A stretch of 37,279 bases of DNA from Candidatus Binatia bacterium (GTDB lineage Bacteria > Desulfobacterota > Binatia > Bin18): contig JAJDZM010000002.1 in NCBI GenBank assembly GCA_022824615.1, positions 1 through 37,279 on the forward strand. The letters run 5' to 3'. Numbering within the stretch: the first letter of the stretch is position 1; every line of letters starts with the position of its first letter. The notes beneath the pieces are model-generated. The model was not told the origin of the DNA. It was given only the letters and a program-made list of their open reading frames with translations, and made no database searches. Positions 14,758 to 29,572 of this stretch are shown piece after piece. A program made the translations under genes and the position numbers.

Positions 14758-17625
14758 ATGGCAAACGCAACGGAGGTTGCCTACAACCTGTCCCTGGCAC
14801 GATTGCTGCGCCATGAGGGGCTGAGTGCAGAAGGAGAGCAACGCCGTGTTTTTGGTAGCTCCCGTGGGCAGGCTGATGTGCTGCTTGACTTCGATGAGTA
14901 TGCCGTCGTTCTTGAGGCCGAGTTCGGCTCTCCGGCAAAGGCAGACGCAGATAGGAGGCTTCCTCAAGACGCTCCGGCCATCGTGAATGGATTGCCAGTC
15001 AGGCTTGGCGTTGCTATTGGCTACCCCCAAAACCTTGCAGACTTGCCGGAGAGCAAGACAGACGAAAACCTGGCGGCCTGTCCCGACCTGCGTATTGCCT
15101 ATCGGTATTTCGGGGAGCCGTGGGGCGAAGAAACAACAGGCAGCGTTACCGATCTTGCCGAGGTCCTGCGGAACTACTGGATACAGAGTGACAATGGCAC
15201 TGGAATCGAGGAGACCGTCAGCCGTGCAGACGCGGCTATTCAGGCAGCGAGCAACGTTCTGACACGGATAGAATTGCAGGATCGGAGCGAGCAGGACGGA
15301 CCCGCCACAAAAGCGCTGATCTGGCTGAATGCCTTGCTCTTTCACGAACTCCTGGCCTTACACCTAGACCCCACTTTACTTCCTGAAGAACATCGCGGTA
15401 AACGCATCCTTCGTCCCGACCCTGATGGTGGCCCTTCTCATTTGCTTCAGCAATGGCGCGAGATACTGGAAATCAACTGGTGGCCGATTTTCCATATTGC
15501 CAGAGAAACCTTAAAGACGACGCCCAGCCCAACGAACCAGGAAGCGATACGCATCCTCAAACGGGCGGCGGCGGAGATTGCCGAGACCGGAACGATACGA
15601 CGCCATGATGTTGCCGGGCGGATATTCCACCGTTTGCTCGATTCAAGAAAGTTTCTGGCGACAAACTACACCACCATACCCGCAGCTATTCTCCTTGCGG
15701 GACTTGCCTTTGACGAGCGCAGTACGTGCTGGGCGGACTTTGACTTTACCGACCCGAAATCGGTTGCCGGTATGCGGGTTGTAGACCCGGCCTGTGGTAG
15801 CGGGACCTTGCTCATGGCGGCGGTGCAAGAGGTTATCAAACGGGCACGGCGAGACGGCCTGAGAGGGTCAGACGAACAAGAACTCATGCGCGCTACCCTG
15901 GAGGACGCAGTGTACGGATTTGATGTCGTCCCTGCTGCGATTCATTTGGCCGCCTCTACGTTGTGCATGGCAGAGTCGCGGCAGGTTATTCGAGACATGA
16001 ATCTGTGGCGGGTGCGTCATGAAATACTCGATAAAACCCCTCGGCTCGGTAGCCTCGATTTTCTTCCGGACTCTCCGAGTCGTGGCAATGCAGCGTGGTT
16101 GCCGGTTTTCACGGATGGAGCGTCGCTCCGTGTCACAGGGGCGGGTGAGGTTCCAGACGATGTGACGATGCCGAATCACTGCCACTTAGTCATTGCCAAT
16201 CCCCCCTTTACGCGGGCAGGGGGGCCGGGAGACGAGAAGAATACGCTGTGGAACCCGATATTTGGGTCCCTTTTAGACGCTGCTGACGCAAAGACCATGA
16301 ACGCCGCCTTGCAAAATACGCTGAAAAAAACTCCTGCCAGCCTCTACGCTGGTCTTGGCTCAGCCTTTGTCGTGCTGGCAGACGAAAATTTGTCTTTGGG
16401 TGGGCGTTTTGCTTTCGTGCTTCCCGCAACCGTGCTGACTGGAAGCCGTTGGAAAAGCATTCGGAAGATGTTGCTGGAAAAATACTGCATTGATTGGATA
16501 ATCGTCAGTCATGACAATCGGAATAGACATAGTGTTCAAGGCTTGCCTGGTCGTCGTTTGGTCTCTTTTTCAGAGTCCACTCGTATTGCCGAGGTCCTCA
16601 TCGTGGCAACAAAAAGTCGTGAGTTTGCAGCATCACAAAACCATGTCCGGTTTGTCAATTTGGTCAACAATCCTGACGAACCTGTGCAGGCTATGGCACT
16701 CACCCGCAAGCTGCTTGCGATGGATGGAGAGGCCTCTCCCTTTGAGCCCCAAGCGGTTGCTGTTGGTGGAACGAATTGGGGAAGCCTCGTAGTCGTTCCA
16801 CAAAAGGAACTCACAGATGAGCCGTGGGAATACACCGCGCTGGCCCAGCCCGAGCTTGTCCTTGTAGCAGAAAAAATAAGCGCTGGCAGAAGTCCGGCTT
16901 TGGGAGCAACAGGGATATCCGAGTTAGGAGATATCGCTCATTTGGGGCCATACCACATGCAGGTGAAAAACCCGAAGCATGGACTGTTTACGATTGCTGA
17001 GACAGAGGATGTTCTGCGGGCAGGAATTCCGGCCCTTTGGCACCATAAGGCAACACGGAATACTACCCTTGAATCAAAGGCCGATGCCCGTTTGGAGCGC
17101 CGGAGTGATACGGACCGGGTTGCACAGGATAAAATGCTTGCACGACAGGGGAGACTACATTTGGTATGCGATCTCGGCATGGCACCACAACGAGTCGCCG
17201 CTGTCCTGACACAACCCCCCATGCTCGGGGTTAGCTCATGGATCACACTTGTATTCAAAGAGCCTGCTCACGGAAAAGAAGAGGCCCTTTGCTTGTGGCT
17301 CAACTCTACACTGGGCCTTTTATTGCGAATCCTCAATAGCAACCGCCCCTATTTAGGGCGGTCTAGGCTGCCCCATGAACTTGCGCGGGTTTTACCGGTA
17401 TTAGATGTGAACACGCTCTCGGAAAGTCAGCTTGAAGCCGCCGTTGCTCTCTATGAAGACTTGAAAGCAAAAGAATTGAGAGGGTTCACTGATATTGCAA
17501 ACGATCCGGTCCGGGCTGAGTTGAATACCCGCCTCTGCCGTGAAGTGTTGGACGTTGATCCTTCCGCCGTTGATAACCTGACACACAAGCTGGCGAACGA
17601 GCCAACACTCCACGCGAGGGCCTAG
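14758..17625 (+). CDS. N6-adenine DNA methylase with possible nuclease-like N-terminus (type IIG-like)
   Basis: This 955-residue protein carries methyltransferase motif I D-P-A-C-G-S-G-T-L-L at 343-352 and the catalytic motif N-P-P-F at 481-484, placing it with HsdM and type IIG enzymes that methylate adenine. The first 60 residues contain G-Q-A-D-V-L-L and then V-V-L-E-A-E-F. This resembles the D...ExK core of PD-(D/E)XK nucleases, but with Glu in place of Lys (D40, E53, E55). Residues 280-340 resemble the HsdM helical region, and the C-terminal third could recognise target DNA. If the N-terminus is active, this is a one-protein restriction-modification enzyme. If not, it is a solo methylase serving the facing DUF488/TcmP block. 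AAGGAAG lies before the ATG. Confidence 0.85.
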   Translation: MANATEVAYNLSLARLLRHEGLSAEGEQRRVFGSSRGQADVLLDFDEYAVVLEAEFGSPAKADADRRLPQDAPAIVNGLPVRLGVAIGYPQNLADLPESKTDENLAACPDLRIAYRYFGEPWGEETTGSVTDLAEVLRNYWIQSDNGTGIEETVSRADAAIQAASNVLTRIELQDRSEQDGPATKALIWLNALLFHELLALHLDPTLLPEEHRGKRILRPDPDGGPSHLLQQWREILEINWWPIFHIARETLKTTPSPTNQEAIRILKRAAAEIAETGTIRRHDVAGRIFHRLLDSRKFLATNYTTIPAAILLAGLAFDERSTCWADFDFTDPKSVAGMRVVDPACGSGTLLMAAVQEVIKRARRDGLRGSDEQELMRATLEDAVYGFDVVPAAIHLAASTLCMAESRQVIRDMNLWRVRHEILDKTPRLGSLDFLPDSPSRGNAAWLPVFTDGASLRVTGAGEVPDDVTMPNHCHLVIANPPFTRAGGPGDEKNTLWNPIFGSLLDAADAKTMNAALQNTLKKTPASLYAGLGSAFVVLADENLSLGGRFAFVLPATVLTGSRWKSIRKMLLEKYCIDWIIVSHDNRNRHSVQGLPGRRLVSFSESTRIAEVLIVATKSREFAASQNHVRFVNLVNNPDEPVQAMALTRKLLAMDGEASPFEPQAVAVGGTNWGSLVVVPQKELTDEPWEYTALAQPELVLVAEKISAGRSPALGATGISELGDIAHLGPYHMQVKNPKHGLFTIAETEDVLRAGIPALWHHKATRNTTLESKADARLERRSDTDRVAQDKMLARQGRLHLVCDLGMAPQRVAAVLTQPPMLGVSSWITLVFKEPAHGKEEALCLWLNSTLGLLLRILNSNRPYLGRSRLPHELARVLPVLDVNTLSESQLEAAVALYEDLKAKELRGFTDIANDPVRAELNTRLCREVLDVDPSAVDNLTHKLANEPTLHARA

Positions 17626-17633
17626 CTGAGATG

Positions 17634-17663
17634 TCGGATTACGCCTCCGGCTAATCCGATCTA
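17634..17663. repeat. REP-like palindrome, island copy A
   Basis: TCGGATTA pairs with TAATCCGA around a ten-base loop, followed by TCTACG. It lies just after the methylase stop. It shares CGGCTAATCCG and the trailing CTACG or CTGCG with three other copies, at 18183, 19321 and 21475. Confidence 0.7.
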
Positions 17664-17712
17664 CGAGACTGTCATTTTTCGTACCGGGTTGCTTTGAGAG
17701 GATTTAATGGCT

Positions 17713-18114
17713 TCATTCGTCCTCGTAGAAAAACCAGTCCGGCTTTTCCCCGGACGCTGCAACATATAAATTTATTCCGATAATGGTTGGAGTAATGCCT
17801 TCTACCAGTCCCCGGAAACCTCCGGGTTTCAAGGGAAGCTTTGGATCACGAGACACGCAACCCAACGAAATTAGCTTTTCCAACGATATGTGCCAATGCT
17901 GATGTGAGAGTGCTTTTTCAATCTCATCAGGATCAATTAGCCTTAACTGCATACCGTCTTTGTCTTCGCTTTCCACTCCATTCCGGACGATAAACCCAAG
18001 AACATCACAATCCAGTCGTGAAAATTGGTGAAGGATCTCAACATAGGTTGTATAGAGGTGAAAATCACCCTCTGAACGTTCATCGGATGCGCTCGTCACA
18101 ATCGGGCGCGACAC
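17713..18114 (-). CDS. Hypothetical 133-residue protein
   Basis: No family is recognised. The sequence is a soluble mixed alpha/beta protein with an acidic end (W-F-F-Y-E-D-E). Its GTG start at 18114 has only a weak AGGG before it. The frame stays open upstream to 18201 and reads plausibly as protein, with a small hydrophobic patch A-L-G-A-V-A-G-I-S-G-F, but has no ATG, GTG or TTG there. The true start may therefore be non-standard, or the 5' end may be damaged. It is the last gene of the minus-strand block after DUF488, with a 111-base gap holding a REP-like copy. It is visibly richer in A+T than the catabolic genes, a sign of transfer. Confidence 0.55.
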   Translation of the reverse strand: MSRPIVTSASDERSEGDFHLYTTYVEILHQFSRLDCDVLGFIVRNGVESEDKDGMQLRLIDPDEIEKALSHQHWHISLEKLISLGCVSRDPKLPLKPGGFRGLVEGITPTIIGINLYVAASGEKPDWFFYEDE

Positions 18115-18182
18115 AAACCCTGAAATCCCAGCGACGGCCCCAAGGGCTTTTCTGAATCTTTGACATACCGTGATTATTTGCT

Positions 18183-18215
18183 GGCGTATGACGTTTCCGG
18201 CTCATGCGCCCTACG
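18183..18215. repeat. REP-like palindrome, island copy B
   Basis: GGCGTATG pairs with CATGCGCC (seven of eight positions) and is followed by CTACG. The loop region TTTCCGGCT aligns with copies A and C. It sits between the short DUF488 gene and the 133-residue gene. Confidence 0.6.
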
Positions 18216-18225
18216 GAGCTACCGA

Positions 18226-18663
18226 TTACCCCAGATGGACAATCTCAACATCGCCCCATTGCCTTTCGAGGTACTCTGCAACCAGCCGGCGGTGGCAATG
18301 TTCGGGTTTGTCCTCACTGCATAACAGGCATCCGTTGGAGATTGTCCTTTTTATGCCCTTTTTACCGATACGCCTCTCGTCCATAAGGGCCAAAAACTGG
18401 CGCTCATATGTTTCCCAGTCCTTGTGCTCTTTACGATAGGCGTCCAGCATCTCTTTGGTGGGGGCAAGGTCCGACAAATGAATGTACTTCATCCGGCAAA
18501 TCTTTTTTAGAAAGTATTCAAGATCATCTTTTTTGGCGAATCCCGCCAGTTGGGAGATATTGTTCAGTCGGACATCAACTAAACGTTTCGCGCCGGACTC
18601 GCGGAGGAGTTCAAAGAAGGTGGCAGCGGATTTTTTCGTGAAACCAATAGTATAGACTTTCAA
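18226..18663 (-). CDS. DUF488 family protein (short form)
   Basis: This 145-residue DUF488 protein opens with K-V-Y-T-I-G-F-T-K-K, the family's first strand, has L-V-D-V-R-L-N next, and ends with L-L-C-S-E-D-K-P-E-H-C-H-R-R-L-V, the conserved Cys/His signature. The biochemical function of the family is not established. The start is a TTG at 18663 that overlaps the stop of the upstream DUF488 gene (TTGA, four bases), so the two are translationally coupled. A pair of different DUF488 proteins side by side suggests a heteromer or two steps of one process (inference). Confidence 0.85.
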   Translation of the reverse strand: MKVYTIGFTKKSAATFFELLRESGAKRLVDVRLNNISQLAGFAKKDDLEYFLKKICRMKYIHLSDLAPTKEMLDAYRKEHKDWETYERQFLALMDERRIGKKGIKRTISNGCLLCSEDKPEHCHRRLVAEYLERQWGDVEIVHLG

Positions 18664-19295
18664 AATACACTCTCTCGCTGGTTGGCACGGGCCTGGGGTT
18701 TTTCGCCCCTATAGGCCACTTTCCGCGCCTGACGGGTGAGGGCATCAGCAATGACCTCCGCTCTGGAGGTGAACATATCGCCATCATGGGGCAGTTTGAA
18801 CATGTCCAGCAGTCGGTCCATAGCAGCGGAGTGGTTTTCTAGGCTGCCGTCGGCGAGGATGTGCTCAACTGCAACGCCGCGTTCTGAGAGTGTCCGAGCA
18901 ACCAGTAAGGTGCGGTGGCATTCCAAGGGTTCTTTCTCGGTACACATCAGGGCAATACGGCGTTCATTGGCATCACGCATGACACGCCTGAGACCATCAT
19001 CAAACAAGGCCGTATTCGCTACCCGGTCGTACCGGACTCTCCCGTTGGCGTCGTAGCACGAGCGGTCGGAAGGTCGCCCGCCTAGTTCGCGGCCCAGAAA
19101 CGTATACCCGATTCCCATCCCATCCAGCATCTGGTTCAAACTTTCTGAGTTGAAGTGCGTAATATGTCGGCTGTATGGGGTTGAGCGAACATCAACGACT
19201 TCAGCCACGTCGTGCCGGTGCAGCAGTTGGATGAACGTCTCCGGCGAATGGTTGGAATGGCCGATCGTGAACACTGGATATTGAGTTGTACTCAT
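18660..19295 (-). CDS. DUF488 family protein (long form)
   Basis: This 211-residue DUF488 protein has F-T-I-G-H-S-N-H-S, E-V-V-D-V-R-S-T-P-Y-S-R, G-R-E-L-G-G-R-P, and M-C-T-E-K-E-P-L-E-C-H-R-T-L-L-V. The last motif matches the Cys-x-E-...-C-H-R signature of the shorter partner downstream. A basic, Gln/Arg-rich tail of about 40 residues is extra and could bind nucleic acid (inference). ATG 19295 lacks a clear ribosome site. It lies 81 bases after the TcmP gene on the same strand, with a REP-like element between. DUF488 proteins often occur in defence or mobile islands, but no activity is known to me. Confidence 0.87.
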   Translation of the reverse strand: MSTTQYPVFTIGHSNHSPETFIQLLHRHDVAEVVDVRSTPYSRHITHFNSESLNQMLDGMGIGYTFLGRELGGRPSDRSCYDANGRVRYDRVANTALFDDGLRRVMRDANERRIALMCTEKEPLECHRTLLVARTLSERGVAVEHILADGSLENHSAAMDRLLDMFKLPHDGDMFTSRAEVIADALTRQARKVAYRGEKPQARANQRESVF

Positions 19296-19320
19296 TGTAC
19301 AGACACAACTCCGCCAGCCC

Positions 19321-19352
19321 CGCAGGGCGGATTAGCCGTAGGCGTAATTCGA
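19321..19352. repeat. REP-like palindrome, island copy C (inverted)
   Basis: On the minus strand it reads TCGAATTACGCC then TACGGCTAATCCGCC and CTGCG, close to copy A. It lies between the DUF488 pair and TcmP. With copy A it brackets the three downstream genes in inverted orientation. Confidence 0.65.
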
Positions 19353-19376
19353 CATTCTCGCTTGCACGAACAACAG

Positions 19377-20630
19377 TCAGCGTCGGCGTGAAGTTCCCGG
19401 CAGTAATAGCTGTTGGGGAAATGCAATCCGGTCTGTGGGAGTGACCCGCCTCAGCGCGCGCGAGCGGACCGTGCCATCTGGGCGCAGAATCTCAATTTCT
19501 CTTTCTCGAAAAAGTTCGAGGACGACGGAATCAAGGTCCGAGAATCGAGCGGCAGTTCTGTTCGCAAACATATGTCGCATCGTGTCTATGGTAACAGGTT
19601 CTTCGGACGCCAAACTGAAAAGTTCGTTGGGCATTGAGTTGAGCAGTTGCCTGCGCATGGCCTCGGCATCCAATTCTTCAAAATGGAACAGTGGGAGTGT
19701 TTCTGAGTTCAAGGCGTCCCATCCCAGCATGTCGAAGCCGCCAGGACCGTAATGTTCAAATTTGTTGTAATTGTTCCAGTGACATTGGATCATCACGTCA
19801 CGCGCCGTGGGATGTCTTGAAAGATGAAGGAACCATAGGGCGCGCCGCGACTGCCTGGGTCGAATGAAAAAAGGCGTATCATAGGTCGCTTTCGTTGCGT
19901 TACGAATGTGTCCCCGGAGTATCCTTTGAACGAGGGCTCTTCCGCCATCGCCATTACGAAGTTGGATCAAGTCGGATATTCGTTGTTCCGTCAGTTCGAG
20001 CGGAGTGACCATTCGGACGAATTCTGGCGTCTCCGCAAGAAAGTTGGTGAGGGCATCCGCCGCGAACGTCAGAATAATTTCTGCAGCGGGTAGCTCACTG
20101 AAAATCCGAGCGATGAGACTGATTTCCACCTGTGAAAAGCCGCACTGGTCCAGAAGAAAGAGTGAACGACCGGCTCTTGGTTGACGGCGGCGAATTTCGG
20201 CGATGATGTCGTCCACCACGTCTTCAAACCGACTGTTATGAACGACGATTCTTTCACTGTCCACTTGATAGCCACGTTCGTCCAAAACTTTTCGGAGGTG
20301 ATTTGTGTGGGCGGCTTCAATATCAACAAAATAGTATTTGAAGTCGAAATGAAGAGTTTTGGTACGGCTCTGGTTCAGCCTGTCTATCGCGGCTTCAGAT
20401 TCCTCAAGCATGATTAAAGGCGTACCGGATACGATCTCGTCGCCGGCCAGAAACGTACCTCCACCCGCAAAGCCATCAATAAGGTCGAGCTTGAATTGGT
20501 CGCGAGAAGGGTTGATGCTCAGCCTGTCGAAGTAAGCCCGAAGGTAACTGCGCAAGACATCTAGTTTCGCCTTGCTGTGTTCTTCTATCGAAGGGGGGGG
20601 TTCATTAGGATGCCATTTGAAGTCCGCCAT
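19377..20630 (-). CDS. tcmP: Three-Cys-motif partner protein TcmP
   Basis: This 417-residue protein matches TcmP, a family named for always pairing with the three-Cys DUF5131 (phage Gp37/Gp68-like) protein. K-L-D-L-I-D-G-F-A-G-G-G-T-F near 47-60 looks like the glycine loop of a Rossmann-fold SAM methyltransferase. L-F-L-L-D-Q-C-G-F-S-Q-V further on could be the motif IV strand. Catalytic residues cannot be assigned by eye and no reaction is known for the family. The ATG at 20630 follows GGAGGAAG and lies 26 bases inside the end of the DUF5131 gene, so the pair is translationally coupled. It may modify nucleic acid together with its partner (inference). Confidence 0.85.
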   Translation of the reverse strand: MADFKWHPNEPPPSIEEHSKAKLDVLRSYLRAYFDRLSINPSRDQFKLDLIDGFAGGGTFLAGDEIVSGTPLIMLEESEAAIDRLNQSRTKTLHFDFKYYFVDIEAAHTNHLRKVLDERGYQVDSERIVVHNSRFEDVVDDIIAEIRRRQPRAGRSLFLLDQCGFSQVEISLIARIFSELPAAEIILTFAADALTNFLAETPEFVRMVTPLELTEQRISDLIQLRNGDGGRALVQRILRGHIRNATKATYDTPFFIRPRQSRRALWFLHLSRHPTARDVMIQCHWNNYNKFEHYGPGGFDMLGWDALNSETLPLFHFEELDAEAMRRQLLNSMPNELFSLASEEPVTIDTMRHMFANRTAARFSDLDSVVLELFREREIEILRPDGTVRSRALRRVTPTDRIAFPQQLLLPGTSRRR

Positions 20631-21366
20631 CTTCCTCCGCCCCCAAATACCTGGGCACCCCGTTGTACTCGATTCCCTCTAGTATGCGCCCCTTTGCTTT
20701 CGGCGTCGGACCACCCCACTGCTTGAAAAAGAAGGGCACGCCCTCCTGCTCGCAACGGTCCCGCACCTCAATGGCCCACTCGGGCCGCATGGGCCGGGCC
20801 TTCGGGCCACTCTCCCCGCCAACAATAACCCAGGCGATTCCCTTGAGGTCTAGGTCCCCTATGGGGCCGAGCAATGGCTCGATGGAAAGAAAGCGCGTGG
20901 AGATGGGAGCCTGCTGGAGATGCCGAACCCTGGCGGTCGCCGTGTGGTCTTCAACAGACACGCCGCACCAGATATGTCGTGGGGCAGGACACGATTGATA
21001 GCGGCGCTGAACATATCTTTTCATGAGTGTACTACGCTTCGTCAATATCTGGAAAATATGCCGATCCGCCACTTCCATTATGTCGAACACTTGGTCGATG
21101 AACGCCGTGGGAACTTGCTTGTGGAACAGGTCACTCATGGAATTTACAAAGATCATGCGTGGTCGTTTCCACGTCAGTGGCTGGCTCAGGCGCTCAGGTC
21201 GGAGCGTTAAATCGAACCCGTGCTCAAAAGGGTGTCCGGGAACACTACGAAAGCGCTCGGAGAAGCGCTCAGCGTAACAATGGTCACAGCCCCGCGTGAT
21301 CTTGGTGCAGCCTGTCACCGGGTTCCAGGTTGCATCCGTCCACTCAATTGCAGATTTATAGCTCAT
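20605..21366 (-). CDS. DUF5131 three-Cys-motif protein (phage Gp37/Gp68 family)
   Basis: This 253-residue protein begins S-A-I-E-W-T-D-A-T-W-N-P-V-T-G-C, with C20, C27 and C30 forming C-x6-C-x2-C. This is the motif that names the family and resembles a radical-SAM or iron-sulfur site with unusual spacing. Later blocks F-V-N-S-M-S-D-L-F-H, L-T-K-R, W-C-G-V-S-V-E and V-G-G-E-S-G-P-K-A-R-P-M are also typical. The function is unknown; relatives occur in phages and defence islands. It is the first gene of the minus-strand block, and its last 26 bases overlap TcmP. Upstream is an AT-rich stretch with a possible -10 and a short palindrome. Confidence 0.87.
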   Translation of the reverse strand: MSYKSAIEWTDATWNPVTGCTKITRGCDHCYAERFSERFRSVPGHPFEHGFDLTLRPERLSQPLTWKRPRMIFVNSMSDLFHKQVPTAFIDQVFDIMEVADRHIFQILTKRSTLMKRYVQRRYQSCPAPRHIWCGVSVEDHTATARVRHLQQAPISTRFLSIEPLLGPIGDLDLKGIAWVIVGGESGPKARPMRPEWAIEVRDRCEQEGVPFFFKQWGGPTPKAKGRILEGIEYNGVPRYLGAEEDGGLQMAS

Positions 21367-21383
21367 GGTGGCACTACGTTACG

Positions 21384-21403
21384 TTATATACACAGCACGT
21401 GCT
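21384..21403 (-). promoter_or_regulatory. Possible promoter and operator of the DUF5131-TcmP block
   Basis: On the minus strand TATATAAC lies about 17 bases before the DUF5131 start, preceded by the perfect ten-base palindrome AGCACGTGCT. An AT-rich hexamer next to a palindrome suggests a regulated promoter. The -10 is unusually near the ATG and no clear -35 is seen. Confidence 0.3.
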
Positions 21404-25051: not shown

Positions 25052-25164
25052 TGGCTTCCCTCCTTCGCGTGCTAGTGTAGACACCCTATGCTTCATCGCT
25101 GCCATTGTCACTATTGCCCGCTTGCTGTACCGCAGGGAGAGGGCCCAGCCTGGGTTTGAGTGAA

Positions 25165-26085
25165 ATGCAGGTATTGGCGCTCTACCATATGAAAGGAGGG
25201 GTAGGTAAAACGGCCGCGGCGGTCAATCTTTCCTATCTGGCCGCACAGTCCGGAGCCCGGACCTTGCTGTGCGATCTCGATCCTCAGGCTTCGGCCACCT
25301 ATTACTTTCGCGTCCAACCCAAGCTCAAAGCCAAGAAAAGAGTGTTTGCGCGTAGTGGAAAGCCGCTTGAAAAGAGTATTAAGGCGACCGATTTTGCCCG
25401 CCTGGAGCTGCTCCCCGGCGCATTGTCTCATCGCCACCTGACAGAGGTGTTTCAGCAAGCCAAACATCCGACGCGCTGCCTGCACCGCAGCTTGGCCGTG
25501 CTTCAGGACGAATACCAGTATGTGATCCTCGACTGTCCGTCCGGAGTGAGCCTGGTTGCGCAAAATGTTTTCTATACCGCGGACTACGTTCTGATTCCCA
25601 TTGTCCCCTCACCGCTGTCGGTCCATGCCTATCAGCAGCTCCGGACGTTTTACACCAAACACGGCTATAACCCCGACAAGCTCCGCACGTTTTTCTCCAT
25701 GGTGGAACGGCAAAAAAAACTGCATCGGTCTGTCATGCGGGAACTGACCGCTTCTCACCCCGAAGCCCTGCCACAGGCCATCCCATATCTCGTCGATGTC
25801 GAAAACATGGGCATCCACCGGGAACCGGTCCTCGTCTCGCTTCCGCAGTCCCGGGCATCCCAGGCGTATGAACGGTTGTGGACAGCAGTGGAAACGCTGC
25901 TCAATCAGGCTCAGCCAGGCTCTCCGCCCGCTCTTGCTGATCCTGATGGCCTTGCGGCCCGGCAATCTCAACCCGGTCAGGATCGCTCAATGGCAGAATC
26001 ATCGGAGCAACCACCGCGGTCAACACCTGAAACTCCTCCACAACCTGCTGTTGCAGAGCCTGCCGCTCTGAAGTCAGCGAAGTAA
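25165..26085 (+). CDS. ParA / MinD-type ATPase
   Basis: This 306-residue protein has the deviant Walker A motif K-G-G-V-G-K-T at 10-16, L-C-D-L-D-P-Q-A-S and the Walker B strand Y-V-I-L-D-C-P-S-G. These mark a ParA-type ATPase that binds nucleoid DNA and positions a cargo. No ParB gene or parS-like site is seen. Residues after about 250 are low-complexity (P, Q, S, E) and are encoded antisense to the end of the CHAD gene, with a 185-base convergent overlap. ParA genes next to CHAD genes may serve the partition of polyphosphate granules, as CHAD binds polyphosphate (inference). The ribosome site before ATG 25165 is weak. Confidence 0.9.
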   Translation: MQVLALYHMKGGVGKTAAAVNLSYLAAQSGARTLLCDLDPQASATYYFRVQPKLKAKKRVFARSGKPLEKSIKATDFARLELLPGALSHRHLTEVFQQAKHPTRCLHRSLAVLQDEYQYVILDCPSGVSLVAQNVFYTADYVLIPIVPSPLSVHAYQQLRTFYTKHGYNPDKLRTFFSMVERQKKLHRSVMRELTASHPEALPQAIPYLVDVENMGIHREPVLVSLPQSRASQAYERLWTAVETLLNQAQPGSPPALADPDGLAARQSQPGQDRSMAESSEQPPRSTPETPPQPAVAEPAALKSAK

Positions 26086-27508
26086 GCAGGACTCCCAGAG
26101 CAGAGTGTGTGCCGTTTTCGTGAAAGGCAAAACCTCCGCCGGTCGTGCTGAACTCCTGGATCAGGGCACTCTGTACACTGATGTCCTGTATCCGACCGAG
26201 GGTCCGCTGGACGCGCTTCAACTGCTTGAGCACGTCTCGGACCGGGAGTTCGGGCAGGCCGGTAATGAAAAAATCCAGCAGATAGCGGAGTTTTTTACAT
26301 GCGATTCTCAGCCTGTGGAGTTGCTCGCTGTCGGCGCGTTGCAGGCTGTCCGGCTCGATTGAGACGAGGGCGCGGCATTTCTCGACCACCCGGTCGGGGA
26401 CGAACTCTTTGACGGCTGGGGTATGGGAGTCGTTGTCTTCAGGCTGGCCGGCAAACGCTTCCCACTCTCGGATCACTGCTCGATAGCGCTTGGTCTCAAA
26501 GGTCTTTATCAGGGTCCGATAGTGTTCCCGCCGTTCCTGCTGGAGAAAGGCGGAAAACGGCTGAAGGGCGGCCCGGCTGTCAGCCGGAAGCCGTTGACGG
26601 TAGGCGTCCTGCACCAGGAGAAAAGCATCCAGATCCCGTGCGCTCCCGGTGGACCGGCCAAGCTGGGCCAGGTCTTTTCGAAACCGCTGTACTGCTTTTC
26701 TGGGAAAAACCTCACGCGTCTGCCCGAGCAGGGAGCGTGCCCGTCTGACGGCAACCCGAAAGTCGTGCAAATAAAGCGGATCATCCCCCTGACGCAGACC
26801 CCGCTCGTTGTAGCGCACCATGGCCAGGAGGAGGCGCAAGAGACGGCGGACTGCCCACTCAACCGGGACTTCCGGCTGTATCGGTAGCGGGCGTTTGATC
26901 GAATATTTCCCCGGAGAGCGACCGGTTGTCGCCAACACCTCTTGGTGAGCGCTCTCGGTCGCTGGTATGAGGTCTTGCTCCCTGCACCACAGCACTAATC
27001 GGTGTGCCTCTTGCTGATAACCTCTGAGCGGCTGGACCCAGATACGCGGTCGGAGGGAACGCCGTTGATTTTTCTTAGCGAGCGTGTGCTCTTCAATAAA
27101 CAGGCGCACCGTTGTCTTCTGGCGCTGGTCGAGTATCCGTATCGGGATGATACGCGTGTGCAGGCTGAAGAGCGGGGTGAGCGGAAGGTCGTCAATCAGC
27201 GCCACCAGGCGCTCTCGCAAACGGCTGGGCGGCAAATCCGTGGCAGTCGCAGGAAGACTGGGACACGGCAACTCTTCAAGCGGGAAGATGGCATCATACG
27301 ACCGGAGGGCAAGCGTCTTCGCGTTCGCACCCAGGGCCAGACGGTACAGGCTGAGTTGCCAGTCCGCCGTGTCGTACTGAGTCCGCCGCTCAGTTGTGAG
27401 CGGCTCTTTATGGATGGAGAATGTCTCTGCCAGGGCATCGAGGAGTTTTTTTCGACTCCAGCGCCCTCGGGGGAGGAATTGAATATCAGCAAGGTGTTCT
27501 CTTGGCAT
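25901..27508 (-). CDS. CYTH-like/CHAD domain protein (polyphosphate-binding type)
   Basis: This is a protein of 535 residues from ATG 27508. The C-terminal half is a CHAD domain with two histidine-centred repeats: H-D-F-R-V-A-V-R-R-A-R-S and, later, H-R-L-R-I-A-C-K-K-L-R-Y. CHAD domains bind polyphosphate through such His/Arg/Lys faces and locate to granules. The N-terminal third looks like a degenerate CYTH (triphosphate tunnel) domain, with Y-D-T-A-D-W-Q-L and K-T-T-V-R-L-F-I-E-E, but its active-site set was not confirmed. The start is uncertain because no good ribosome site is seen and the frame stays open upstream into repeat DNA. The last 60 codons lie antisense to the ParA gene. Confidence 0.85.
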   Translation of the reverse strand: MPREHLADIQFLPRGRWSRKKLLDALAETFSIHKEPLTTERRTQYDTADWQLSLYRLALGANAKTLALRSYDAIFPLEELPCPSLPATATDLPPSRLRERLVALIDDLPLTPLFSLHTRIIPIRILDQRQKTTVRLFIEEHTLAKKNQRRSLRPRIWVQPLRGYQQEAHRLVLWCREQDLIPATESAHQEVLATTGRSPGKYSIKRPLPIQPEVPVEWAVRRLLRLLLAMVRYNERGLRQGDDPLYLHDFRVAVRRARSLLGQTREVFPRKAVQRFRKDLAQLGRSTGSARDLDAFLLVQDAYRQRLPADSRAALQPFSAFLQQERREHYRTLIKTFETKRYRAVIREWEAFAGQPEDNDSHTPAVKEFVPDRVVEKCRALVSIEPDSLQRADSEQLHRLRIACKKLRYLLDFFITGLPELPVRDVLKQLKRVQRTLGRIQDISVQSALIQEFSTTGGGFAFHENGTHSALGVLLTSLTSERQALQQQVVEEFQVLTAVVAPMILPLSDPDRVEIAGPQGHQDQQERAESLAEPD

Positions 27509-27620
27509 GCGCCCGACGAGAGCGCTTCGAGATTTCTGTCTGATCCCCTGCCCTCGCGCCTGTACTTGTAGCGCAGCCCCCCTTGCTCCGACAATACCGG
27601 TCCGGCGGATGGGAGCCAAC

Positions 27621-27646
27621 GGGCAACCACAGAGGGTTGCCCCTAC
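27621..27646. repeat. GTAGGGGC-family palindromic element
   Basis: GGGCAACC at 27621-27628 pairs perfectly with GGTTGCCC at 27635-27642 around a six-base loop, followed by CTAC. On the minus strand it reads GTAGGGGCAACC. It lies between the CHAD gene and the polymerase gene. Confidence 0.65.
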
Positions 27647-27679
27647 GGAGGGGCCCCAACCACTAGCCACTGACCACTC

Positions 27680-29506
27680 CTACCCGTCCAGCGGCACGCC
27701 GGCCCAGTTTTTGCCGATCACCGCTTCGACTGCAATCGGAACCCGGTCCGCCACAATCTCTCGCATGGCTTCAACCATATGGCTGGTCAGCCAGGCCTGG
27801 GTGGCTTGGGCATCGGCCAGGGGCGCTTCGACCAGAATCTCGTCGTGGACGCAGGCAACGGGTGTTGCCTGCGGCGCTTGGTCGCGGTGTTCAAACAGGC
27901 GCGCCAGAGCCAGCTTGAAGCCGTCGCCCCCCGTCCCTTGCACCGGGATATTGAGGAGCACGTTAAAGTGCCGTACCCCCAGGAAACGGCGACCGGTGAG
28001 GGTGCGGGTTGCGAGGCTACTCTCCTGATGCCTCACCTGCTCGGCCTGTTGTTTGGCCTGCTGATGCCAGCGGGCAATGCCCTGATAGGTCAGAAAGAAC
28101 GCGCGGTGGTATTGGGCCGCTTCCCGGTCGGACATGCGGACACCATACTTTGCCTCCGCATCCTGTTTCAGGCCGTTCACCCCCATACCGTACAACAGGC
28201 CGAAATTAACGCTCTTGGCGAGTTGGCGGTGGTGCGGTTCGACCTGGTTCAGCGGGATGTGCAGGATGCGCGAGGCCGTCAGGGCGTGCAGGTCGGTTTC
28301 CTCTCGAAACGCTTGCAGCATGGTCGGGTCGTTGGCCAGGACCGCGGCAATCCGCAGTTCGACCTGGGAATAGTCGGCCTTGATCAGGGCCCTTTCCGGA
28401 GCGGCGCAAAAGCAGGCGCGAAAGGCGCGCGCCTTTGGGATCTGCTGGATGTTTGGGCCGCCACAACTCATGCGCCCGGTGGCGGTCCCGTTTTGAAAAT
28501 ACACCGGATACACCCGGCCCGAGTCCGCATCGAAAAACGAGTCAATTACACTCCGGCCATAGGTACTGACCCGTTTGGCGACTTCTTTATGGCTGACCAG
28601 AAGTGCGGCAATGGGATGATCGATTTTCCTGAGCGTAGCAGAGCGGACATTGGGCAACTCGATCCCGAGGGTCTGGAACAGGGCCTTGATTTGCTGCGAT
28701 GACGCCCAGTTGATGGACATACCGACATCCCGGGCGTAGGCGTGGAGTTGATGGGTGAGCGCTTCGAGTTGGGCTTCATCTTCCAGCGTCCGCGCCAGCC
28801 AGCCCTGGGCGTCAAAGGCGATACCGGCGAGTTCCAGCCAGGCCAGCGCCTTGACGCAGCGAAATTCAATCTCCGCCGCCCGTTCCAGACCCGCCTCGAC
28901 CAGGGCCGGACCCAAGCGGTCGTACAGCGGCCACAGCACCCCCACATCCCGAGCGGCGTACTCACACTGGGCAGGACTGAGTTCTCCCGACCAGTCGGCA
29001 GTTTGCAAGTGTTTCGGCAGGGCTCGACCCAATTCCTGTTCCACCACCTCTTCGAGACTATGGCGGACGCGCAGCCCGGCTTTGAGCACCTGGCTGGCTA
29101 ACATGGTGTCAAAGACGGTATCAGGCCAGGGACAGCCAGCGGAGACAAGAAATTTCAGATCAAACTTGGCATTGTGGAGCAGCCAGCAACGCGGGGCACT
29201 GAACAGGGGGAAGAGGGCGGCAATGGGGATGCGACGCACATCAAACAGATAGGCGTGGTCGGGTGTCGCAATCTGGATGAGCCGCAGGGAGTCTGTCCGA
29301 AAGTCGAGCCCGGTTGTCTCGGTATCGCAGGATAAGACGGGAGCGGCATGCAGGCCGGGCAGCACACGCTCAAGCTGAGCGGATTCCGTCACCACGGTGT
29401 ACCCAGGCGTTTCACATATGGACAGAGCCTCGGACGGAGCCGTCTGGCTGGCCTGAGAGGTCATCTCTTCCGGGAAGAGAACGCCTTGTTCGTATAGCTG
29501 CACCAT
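27680..29506 (-). CDS. Family A DNA polymerase with 3'-5' exonuclease, lacking the 5' nuclease
   Basis: This is a protein of 608 residues from ATG 29506. The exonuclease motifs are complete: C-D-T-E-T-T-G-L-D, H-N-A-K-F-D-L-K-F-L and Y-A-A-R-D-V. Polymerase motif A is D-Y-S-Q-V-E-L-R-I, motif B is R-Q-L-A-K-S-V-N-F-G-L-L-Y-G, and motif C is V-H-D-E. The 5'-3' nuclease domain of PolA is absent and the whole protein is about two thirds the length of PolA, similar to phage or accessory polymerases. It should copy DNA and proofread. It may aid repair or come from an old phage. An extra GTG start lies four codons upstream. The ribosome site is weak. Confidence 0.93.
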   Translation of the reverse strand: MVQLYEQGVLFPEEMTSQASQTAPSEALSICETPGYTVVTESAQLERVLPGLHAAPVLSCDTETTGLDFRTDSLRLIQIATPDHAYLFDVRRIPIAALFPLFSAPRCWLLHNAKFDLKFLVSAGCPWPDTVFDTMLASQVLKAGLRVRHSLEEVVEQELGRALPKHLQTADWSGELSPAQCEYAARDVGVLWPLYDRLGPALVEAGLERAAEIEFRCVKALAWLELAGIAFDAQGWLARTLEDEAQLEALTHQLHAYARDVGMSINWASSQQIKALFQTLGIELPNVRSATLRKIDHPIAALLVSHKEVAKRVSTYGRSVIDSFFDADSGRVYPVYFQNGTATGRMSCGGPNIQQIPKARAFRACFCAAPERALIKADYSQVELRIAAVLANDPTMLQAFREETDLHALTASRILHIPLNQVEPHHRQLAKSVNFGLLYGMGVNGLKQDAEAKYGVRMSDREAAQYHRAFFLTYQGIARWHQQAKQQAEQVRHQESSLATRTLTGRRFLGVRHFNVLLNIPVQGTGGDGFKLALARLFEHRDQAPQATPVACVHDEILVEAPLADAQATQAWLTSHMVEAMREIVADRVPIAVEAVIGKNWAGVPLDG

Positions 29507-29572
29507 GCTTCGTCTCACCGAAAGAGAGCTATGCTATTACTCTTCAGAACCTCACGCCACACGTAAATGTTG

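Follow-up and report, generated by a model that had tools for sequence, protein, structure and literature searches.

Evolutionary linkage of a ParA-type ATPase with a polyphosphate-binding type of CHAD protein in Binatia and other bacteria: a candidate module for the positioning of polyphosphate granules

The stretch of DNA that we have analysed, hereafter the window, is 37,279 nucleotides long; it is contig 149 in the draft genome of a member of the Binatia (G000), which totals 4.98 Mb. Two convergent genes form the subject of this study: the first, on the forward strand, lies in an open reading frame (ORF) at positions 25105..26085, with its first ATG at 25165 and an in-frame TTG also at 25105, and encodes an ATPase of the ParA type; the second, on the reverse strand, lies in an ORF at positions 25901..27670, with its first ATG at 27508, and encodes a protein with a CHAD domain. 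The 3' ends of the two genes are antisense to each other over 185 bp (25901..26085), and the ORF coordinates thus agree with the initial annotation, which had described a convergent pair with tails overlapping by that length and a lone ParA without a ParB. No ParB is found among the neighbouring ORFs that were scanned against Pfam, which encode the CHAD protein, PolA, an alpha/beta hydrolase and others; a separate soj-parB locus is located on another contig of the same genome (L166), and the genome encodes one copy of PPK1. Directly upstream of the CHAD gene and on the same strand (27680-29518), there is a gene for a family A DNA polymerase of 612 amino acids, with 3'-5' exonuclease and polymerase domains; Pfam gives no match to a 5'-3' nuclease in it.

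The conserved core of the ParA (25165..25900, forward strand) matches the Pfam family AAA_31 (2e-31) and carries a KGGVGKT Walker A motif with the signature lysine, together with DLDPQ and VILDCP, i.e. the deviant Walker A, the Walker A' and the Walker B are all present; in the alignment, K10, G11, G12, G14, K15, T16, D37, D39-Q41 and D123 are invariant. The AF2 model, with a pLDDT of about 90 across most of residues 1-247, has the ParA fold, as indicated by its match to 8ray (Z 31.5, 244 aligned residues, rmsd 2.2); its similarity is greatest to ParA/Soj structures (Z 31), followed by McdA (Z 27.6) and by FleN and BcsQ (Z 25-26). The arginine of the Soj motif IPRNVR is replaced in the subfamily of the window ParA (IPYxxD), where an RxKK patch is present; because of this replacement, the binding of the nucleoid remains unproven.

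The members of the subfamily score about 280-490 bits against its profile, where Soj-type proteins reach at most about 128 bits. In a tree of 86 ParAs, the Soj-type entries are split from the subfamily at 100/100, and the window ParA is placed within a clade of 23 entries, all of them CHAD-linked (100/98), which joins the entry from genome G036 at 100/97; a clustering with chromosomal Soj types, which the initial annotation had named as a result that would refute its proposal, is therefore not observed. The window ParA resembles the Soj/ParA of chromosomal ParABS systems in its Walker motifs and its fold, but it differs from them in its separate clade, in the absence of a neighbouring ParB, in the replaced IPRNVR arginine and in the presence of a soj-parB pair elsewhere in the genome. 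A Soj-type ParABS identity is ruled out by the split in the tree, the missing ParB neighbour and the soj-parB pair on the other contig, and our computations establish an ATPase with intact ParA motifs and fold that is distinct from Soj.

The CHAD protein (25901..27508, reverse strand) consists of a degenerate TTM/CYTH domain (amino acids 1-195), a CHAD domain (amino acids 206-507) and a disordered tail (amino acids 508-535); its AF2 model (pLDDT 85.7) comprises a beta-rich N-terminal domain and the CHAD domain. The latter is matched by Pfam (2e-50) and resembles CtCHAD from Chlorobium tepidum and the phosins, with 29-31% identity and with model matches of Z 30 to the polyphosphate-bound structure 6qva and Z 30.7 to 6qv7. 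The polyphosphate-binding residues of CtCHAD have been demonstrated by mutation (PMC6537752); the window protein has the same residue at seven of the eight contacts (H248, R251, R255, R291, R408, Y409 and K431), and the eighth, R438, corresponds to K428, an arginine-to-lysine change. The first six, i.e. H248 to Y409, are invariant in 29 of 29 relatives. Computation thus establishes that the window protein keeps the residues that grip polyphosphate in CtCHAD; there are no binding or localisation data. CtCHAD is different in that its CHAD domain alone has been characterised, and a link with ParA is not seen in the accessible part of that paper.

The protein had been named "CYTH/CHAD" in the initial annotation: the fold implied by this name is confirmed, as the N-terminal domain of the model matches TTM enzymes with Z 12-13 over about 175 residues, while the implied enzyme is not, as the ExExK motif is missing from the first strand, and we therefore use the term "degenerate CYTH"; Pfam gives no CYTH match in this protein. 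The domain order, TTM followed by CHAD, is that of the Escherichia coli CYTH-CHAD tripolyphosphatase YgiF, from which the window protein differs by the absence of ExExK; with this motif lost, it has the appearance of a binding protein and is probably not a phosphatase. ExExK is missing from the first strand of the ParA-linked CHADs, compared to its retention in 17 of 20 CHADs from Pseudomonadota genomes that lack the ParA (the CHAD ORFs of the comparison genomes having been identified by HMM), and where a Pseudomonadota genome carries the ParA unlinked, its CHADs are mostly proteins of about 310 amino acids that consist of the CHAD domain only; on these grounds, the ParA-linked CHADs represent a distinct pseudo-CYTH branch.

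The hallmark of the partners of ParA/MinD ATPases is a basic, disordered N-terminus (PMC10241942, which does not mention polyphosphate); such an N-terminus is not evident here, most of the linked CHADs starting directly in the first beta-strand. Of the 29 CHADs in the linked branch, 12 have a C-terminal LFxxLF motif, which is lacking from all 40 CHADs outside it that were compared; it is possible that it serves as a ParA-docking peptide, but we do not claim this role, because the motif is missing in the genus of the window. A second CHAD protein of the pseudo-CYTH branch is encoded in the window genome (L002:599-1306 and 1339-2880, contig 254); its gene converges on that of a stand-alone CYTH protein, with no ParA beside it.

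The seven genomes of the Binatia genus to which the window belongs all have the convergent, overlapping arrangement. In the overlap, codon position 3 of ParA is opposite to position 2 of CHAD and the reverse, with the two positions 1 coinciding; across the seven congeners, the variable sites amount to 10 of 61 at the shared position 1, 27 of 62 at ParA position 3 and 21 of 62 at ParA position 2, which makes the shared position 1 the least variable (Fisher p 0.0015 and 0.037 against ParA positions 3 and 2, respectively). Insertions and deletions in the overlap are multiples of three, with both frames being kept, and the second codon positions of both genes are relaxed relative to the cores (p about 1e-6 each). 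Based on the variability of sites by codon phase and on the frame-keeping indels, which are evidence from sequence only, both frames appear to be translated under weak constraint. An artefact of the ORF caller is ruled out by the presence of the overlap in the seven congeners, by the indels and by the low variability of the coinciding first positions.

Both tails had been described as low-complexity and antisense to each other. The ParA tail (25901..26085, forward strand) is of low complexity and lies entirely antisense to the CHAD 3' end, and both it (pLDDT 46-58) and the CHAD tail (25901..25987, reverse strand, pLDDT below 50) are predicted by AF2 to be disordered. The ParA segment after residue 246 is missing from every relative outside the genus, as is the last part of CHAD, and this restriction to one genus fits the earlier suggestion that tails had grown through the loss of a stop, which remains an inference. 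The simplest reading that we can infer is that stops were lost in both tails after a rearrangement: an ancestral same-strand pair would have been turned into a convergent one in this genus, and the 3' ends would then have extended into each other.

A survey of gene neighbourhoods, which the initial annotation had proposed as a check, with the absence of a link in other genomes as a refuting result, has found the link of ParA with CHAD to hold in the Binatia, in the wider phylum and in a second phylum. The ParA subfamily is present in 15 of 148 Binatia genomes and is adjacent to CHAD in all 15, with two gene orders: seven convergent pairs in the genus of the window, and eight pairs in another family with ParA followed by CHAD on one strand. 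The 395 genomes that were drawn evenly from the wider phylum contain 23 ParA loci, 19 of which adjoin CHAD, three of which do not, and one of which is located at a contig edge, with CYTH and SixA downstream. In the phylum of MAG Prado141 (G201), CHAD is followed by ParA on one strand in 14 of 14 genomes; PPK1 belongs to eight of these clusters, and it is absent from the examined contig stretch in the other six. Ppx, PPK2, CYTH, SixA and NUDIX genes occur in some other ParA-CHAD clusters, for example PPK1-CHAD-ParA-CYTH-NUDIX/SixA in genome G186 and CHAD-ParA-CYTH-NUDIX on Paracoccus plasmids, one of them near phoU-phoB. In three genomes of one family (L154, L155 and L156), argJ lies directly upstream of CHAD-ParA-SixA, and at L186 argJ-ParA is retained without CHAD.

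The ParA subfamily is also found in 61 of the 299 Pseudomonadota genomes (the phylum of a Methylococcaceae MAG), where it adjoins CHAD, by coordinates, in at least four (G342, G304, G318 and G358), most copies being unlinked; the unlinked copies are often located near RnfH-like and TruA-like genes (L105, L106, L112 and similar loci). CHAD is detected in 51 of the 61 genomes with the ParA, versus 102 of the 238 without it, leaving 10 ParA genomes with no detected CHAD. In the phylum of the window genome, the ParA and the pseudo-CYTH CHAD occur in 22 genomes each, 18 of which are common to both, against 1.2 expected; neither co-occurrence has been corrected for relatedness. Taken together, these computations demonstrate that ParA and CHAD are evolutionarily linked, and that they occur in the polyphosphate gene clusters of other phyla. 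That the two are merely neighbours by descent, without functional coupling, is a reading that we already disfavour and consider very improbable, as the linkage persists in three gene orders and many families with a chance adjacency of about 0.1% per genome, even if the pair is convergent rather than an operon in this genus and many Pseudomonadota copies are unlinked.

Among known systems, the pair can be compared with McdA/McdB, where the gene of a ParA-type ATPase likewise neighbours those of a cytoplasmic inclusion that is not DNA, and where the nucleoid is likely the matrix. The placement of the ATPase gene beside cargo-associated genes, as expected of an McdAB-like system, is observed in our case (CHAD, PPK1, Ppx and PPK2 in the relatives); the differences are that the partner is not McdB but a folded pseudo-TTM/CHAD binder of polyphosphate, with no basic disordered N-terminus, and that the fold of the window ParA is matched less closely by McdA than by Soj. 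AlgP of Pseudomonas aeruginosa spaces polyphosphate granules on the nucleoid, as the window pair would also do, but it is a histone H1-like tether and not a ParA ATPase (PMC9239181). The same gene set, folD-ppk-parA-CHAD, was reported as a conserved group of Acidithiobacillus in a 2024 study of copper resistance (PMC10892726); that report concerns one genus, says of ParA merely that plasmid partition depends crucially on it, and proposes no cargo. Among the papers that were searched, none names the CHAD domain and the ParA family together, and an older mention of the neighbourhood is not excluded.

The co-inheritance of the ParA with a polyphosphate-binding CHAD in several phyla, in many cases with the gene for polyphosphate synthesis as a neighbour, suggests that bacteria may space and share their granules by means of ParA. 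We hold with high confidence that the pair serves polyphosphate at all, a dedication that is strongly supported; that it forms, along the whole chain, an McdAB-like positioning module of the ParA/MinD type, with polyphosphate as the cargo and CHAD as the adaptor, is an inference that we think reasonably probable. The fuller statement, i.e. that an ATP-driven ParA places polyphosphate granules on the nucleoid and partitions them through a pseudoenzyme TTM-CHAD granule adaptor in several phyla, often together with ppk1, is one towards which we lean only slightly. In this mechanism, ATP-bound ParA dimers would coat the nucleoid and the CHAD protein would coat the granule; CHAD would stimulate the ATPase of ParA and its release, and the granules would track the resulting ParA gradient, keep apart and be divided between the daughters, in the way of McdB-coated carboxysomes on McdA. 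The initial proposal that the pair could segregate polyphosphate granules is thus supported by the linkage and by the non-Soj clade, while localisation and segregation of granules are unshown. Against positioning stand the lack of localisation, ATPase or binding data, the missing basic N-terminus of the partner, the replaced IPRNVR arginine, the unlinked state of most Pseudomonadota copies and the 10 ParA genomes of that phylum in which no CHAD is detected.

Two further readings have to be weighed. The ParA may instead be a regulatory or assembly ATPase of polyphosphate metabolism, which controls the formation of a PPK1/CHAD complex and not the position of the granule; its presence in the same gene clusters as polyphosphate genes, the fold match to the non-segregating FleN (flagellar regulation) and BcsQ (cellulose secretion), and the absence of the canonical N-terminus from CHAD are all compatible with this, but the closest folds and sequences are those of ParA/Soj, and the cluster can do without PPK1, which six of 14 lack on the contig stretch examined; we regard this reading as unlikely. 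Less probable still, in our judgement, is that polyphosphate-bound CHAD titrates or triggers the ParA, which would then act on Soj/ParB or on division, coupling polyphosphate status to the chromosome and the cell cycle: a separate Soj-ParB is available in the window genome, and the inheritance of polyphosphate granules in Caulobacter depends on chromosome segregation (cited in PMC13052382), but the ParA subfamily is sharply separated from Soj, and no parB or division gene is located beside the ParA in the loci that were read.

The positioning of granules through ParA has not yet been shown in a cell by anyone. In a 2025 review (PMC13052382), AlgP is the only spacing factor of polyphosphate granules that is covered, and whether the positioning of polyphosphate costs energy is left open; through the conserved ParA-CHAD-PPK1 cluster, this question becomes readily accessible to genetics. 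With the positioning module, the ParA/MinD ATPases gain a probable new class of cargo, and a role is offered for a CHAD branch whose CYTH domain looks catalytically dead.

Elsewhere in the window, the region 14758-21400, in a part of reduced GC content (0.52-0.53 over 16-22 kb), encodes an N6-DNA-methylase/Eco57I-like protein of 955 amino acids and, as judged by eye, two DUF488 proteins, a TcmP-like protein and one that resembles phage Gp37/68; a mobile or defence island is a possible interpretation of this region.
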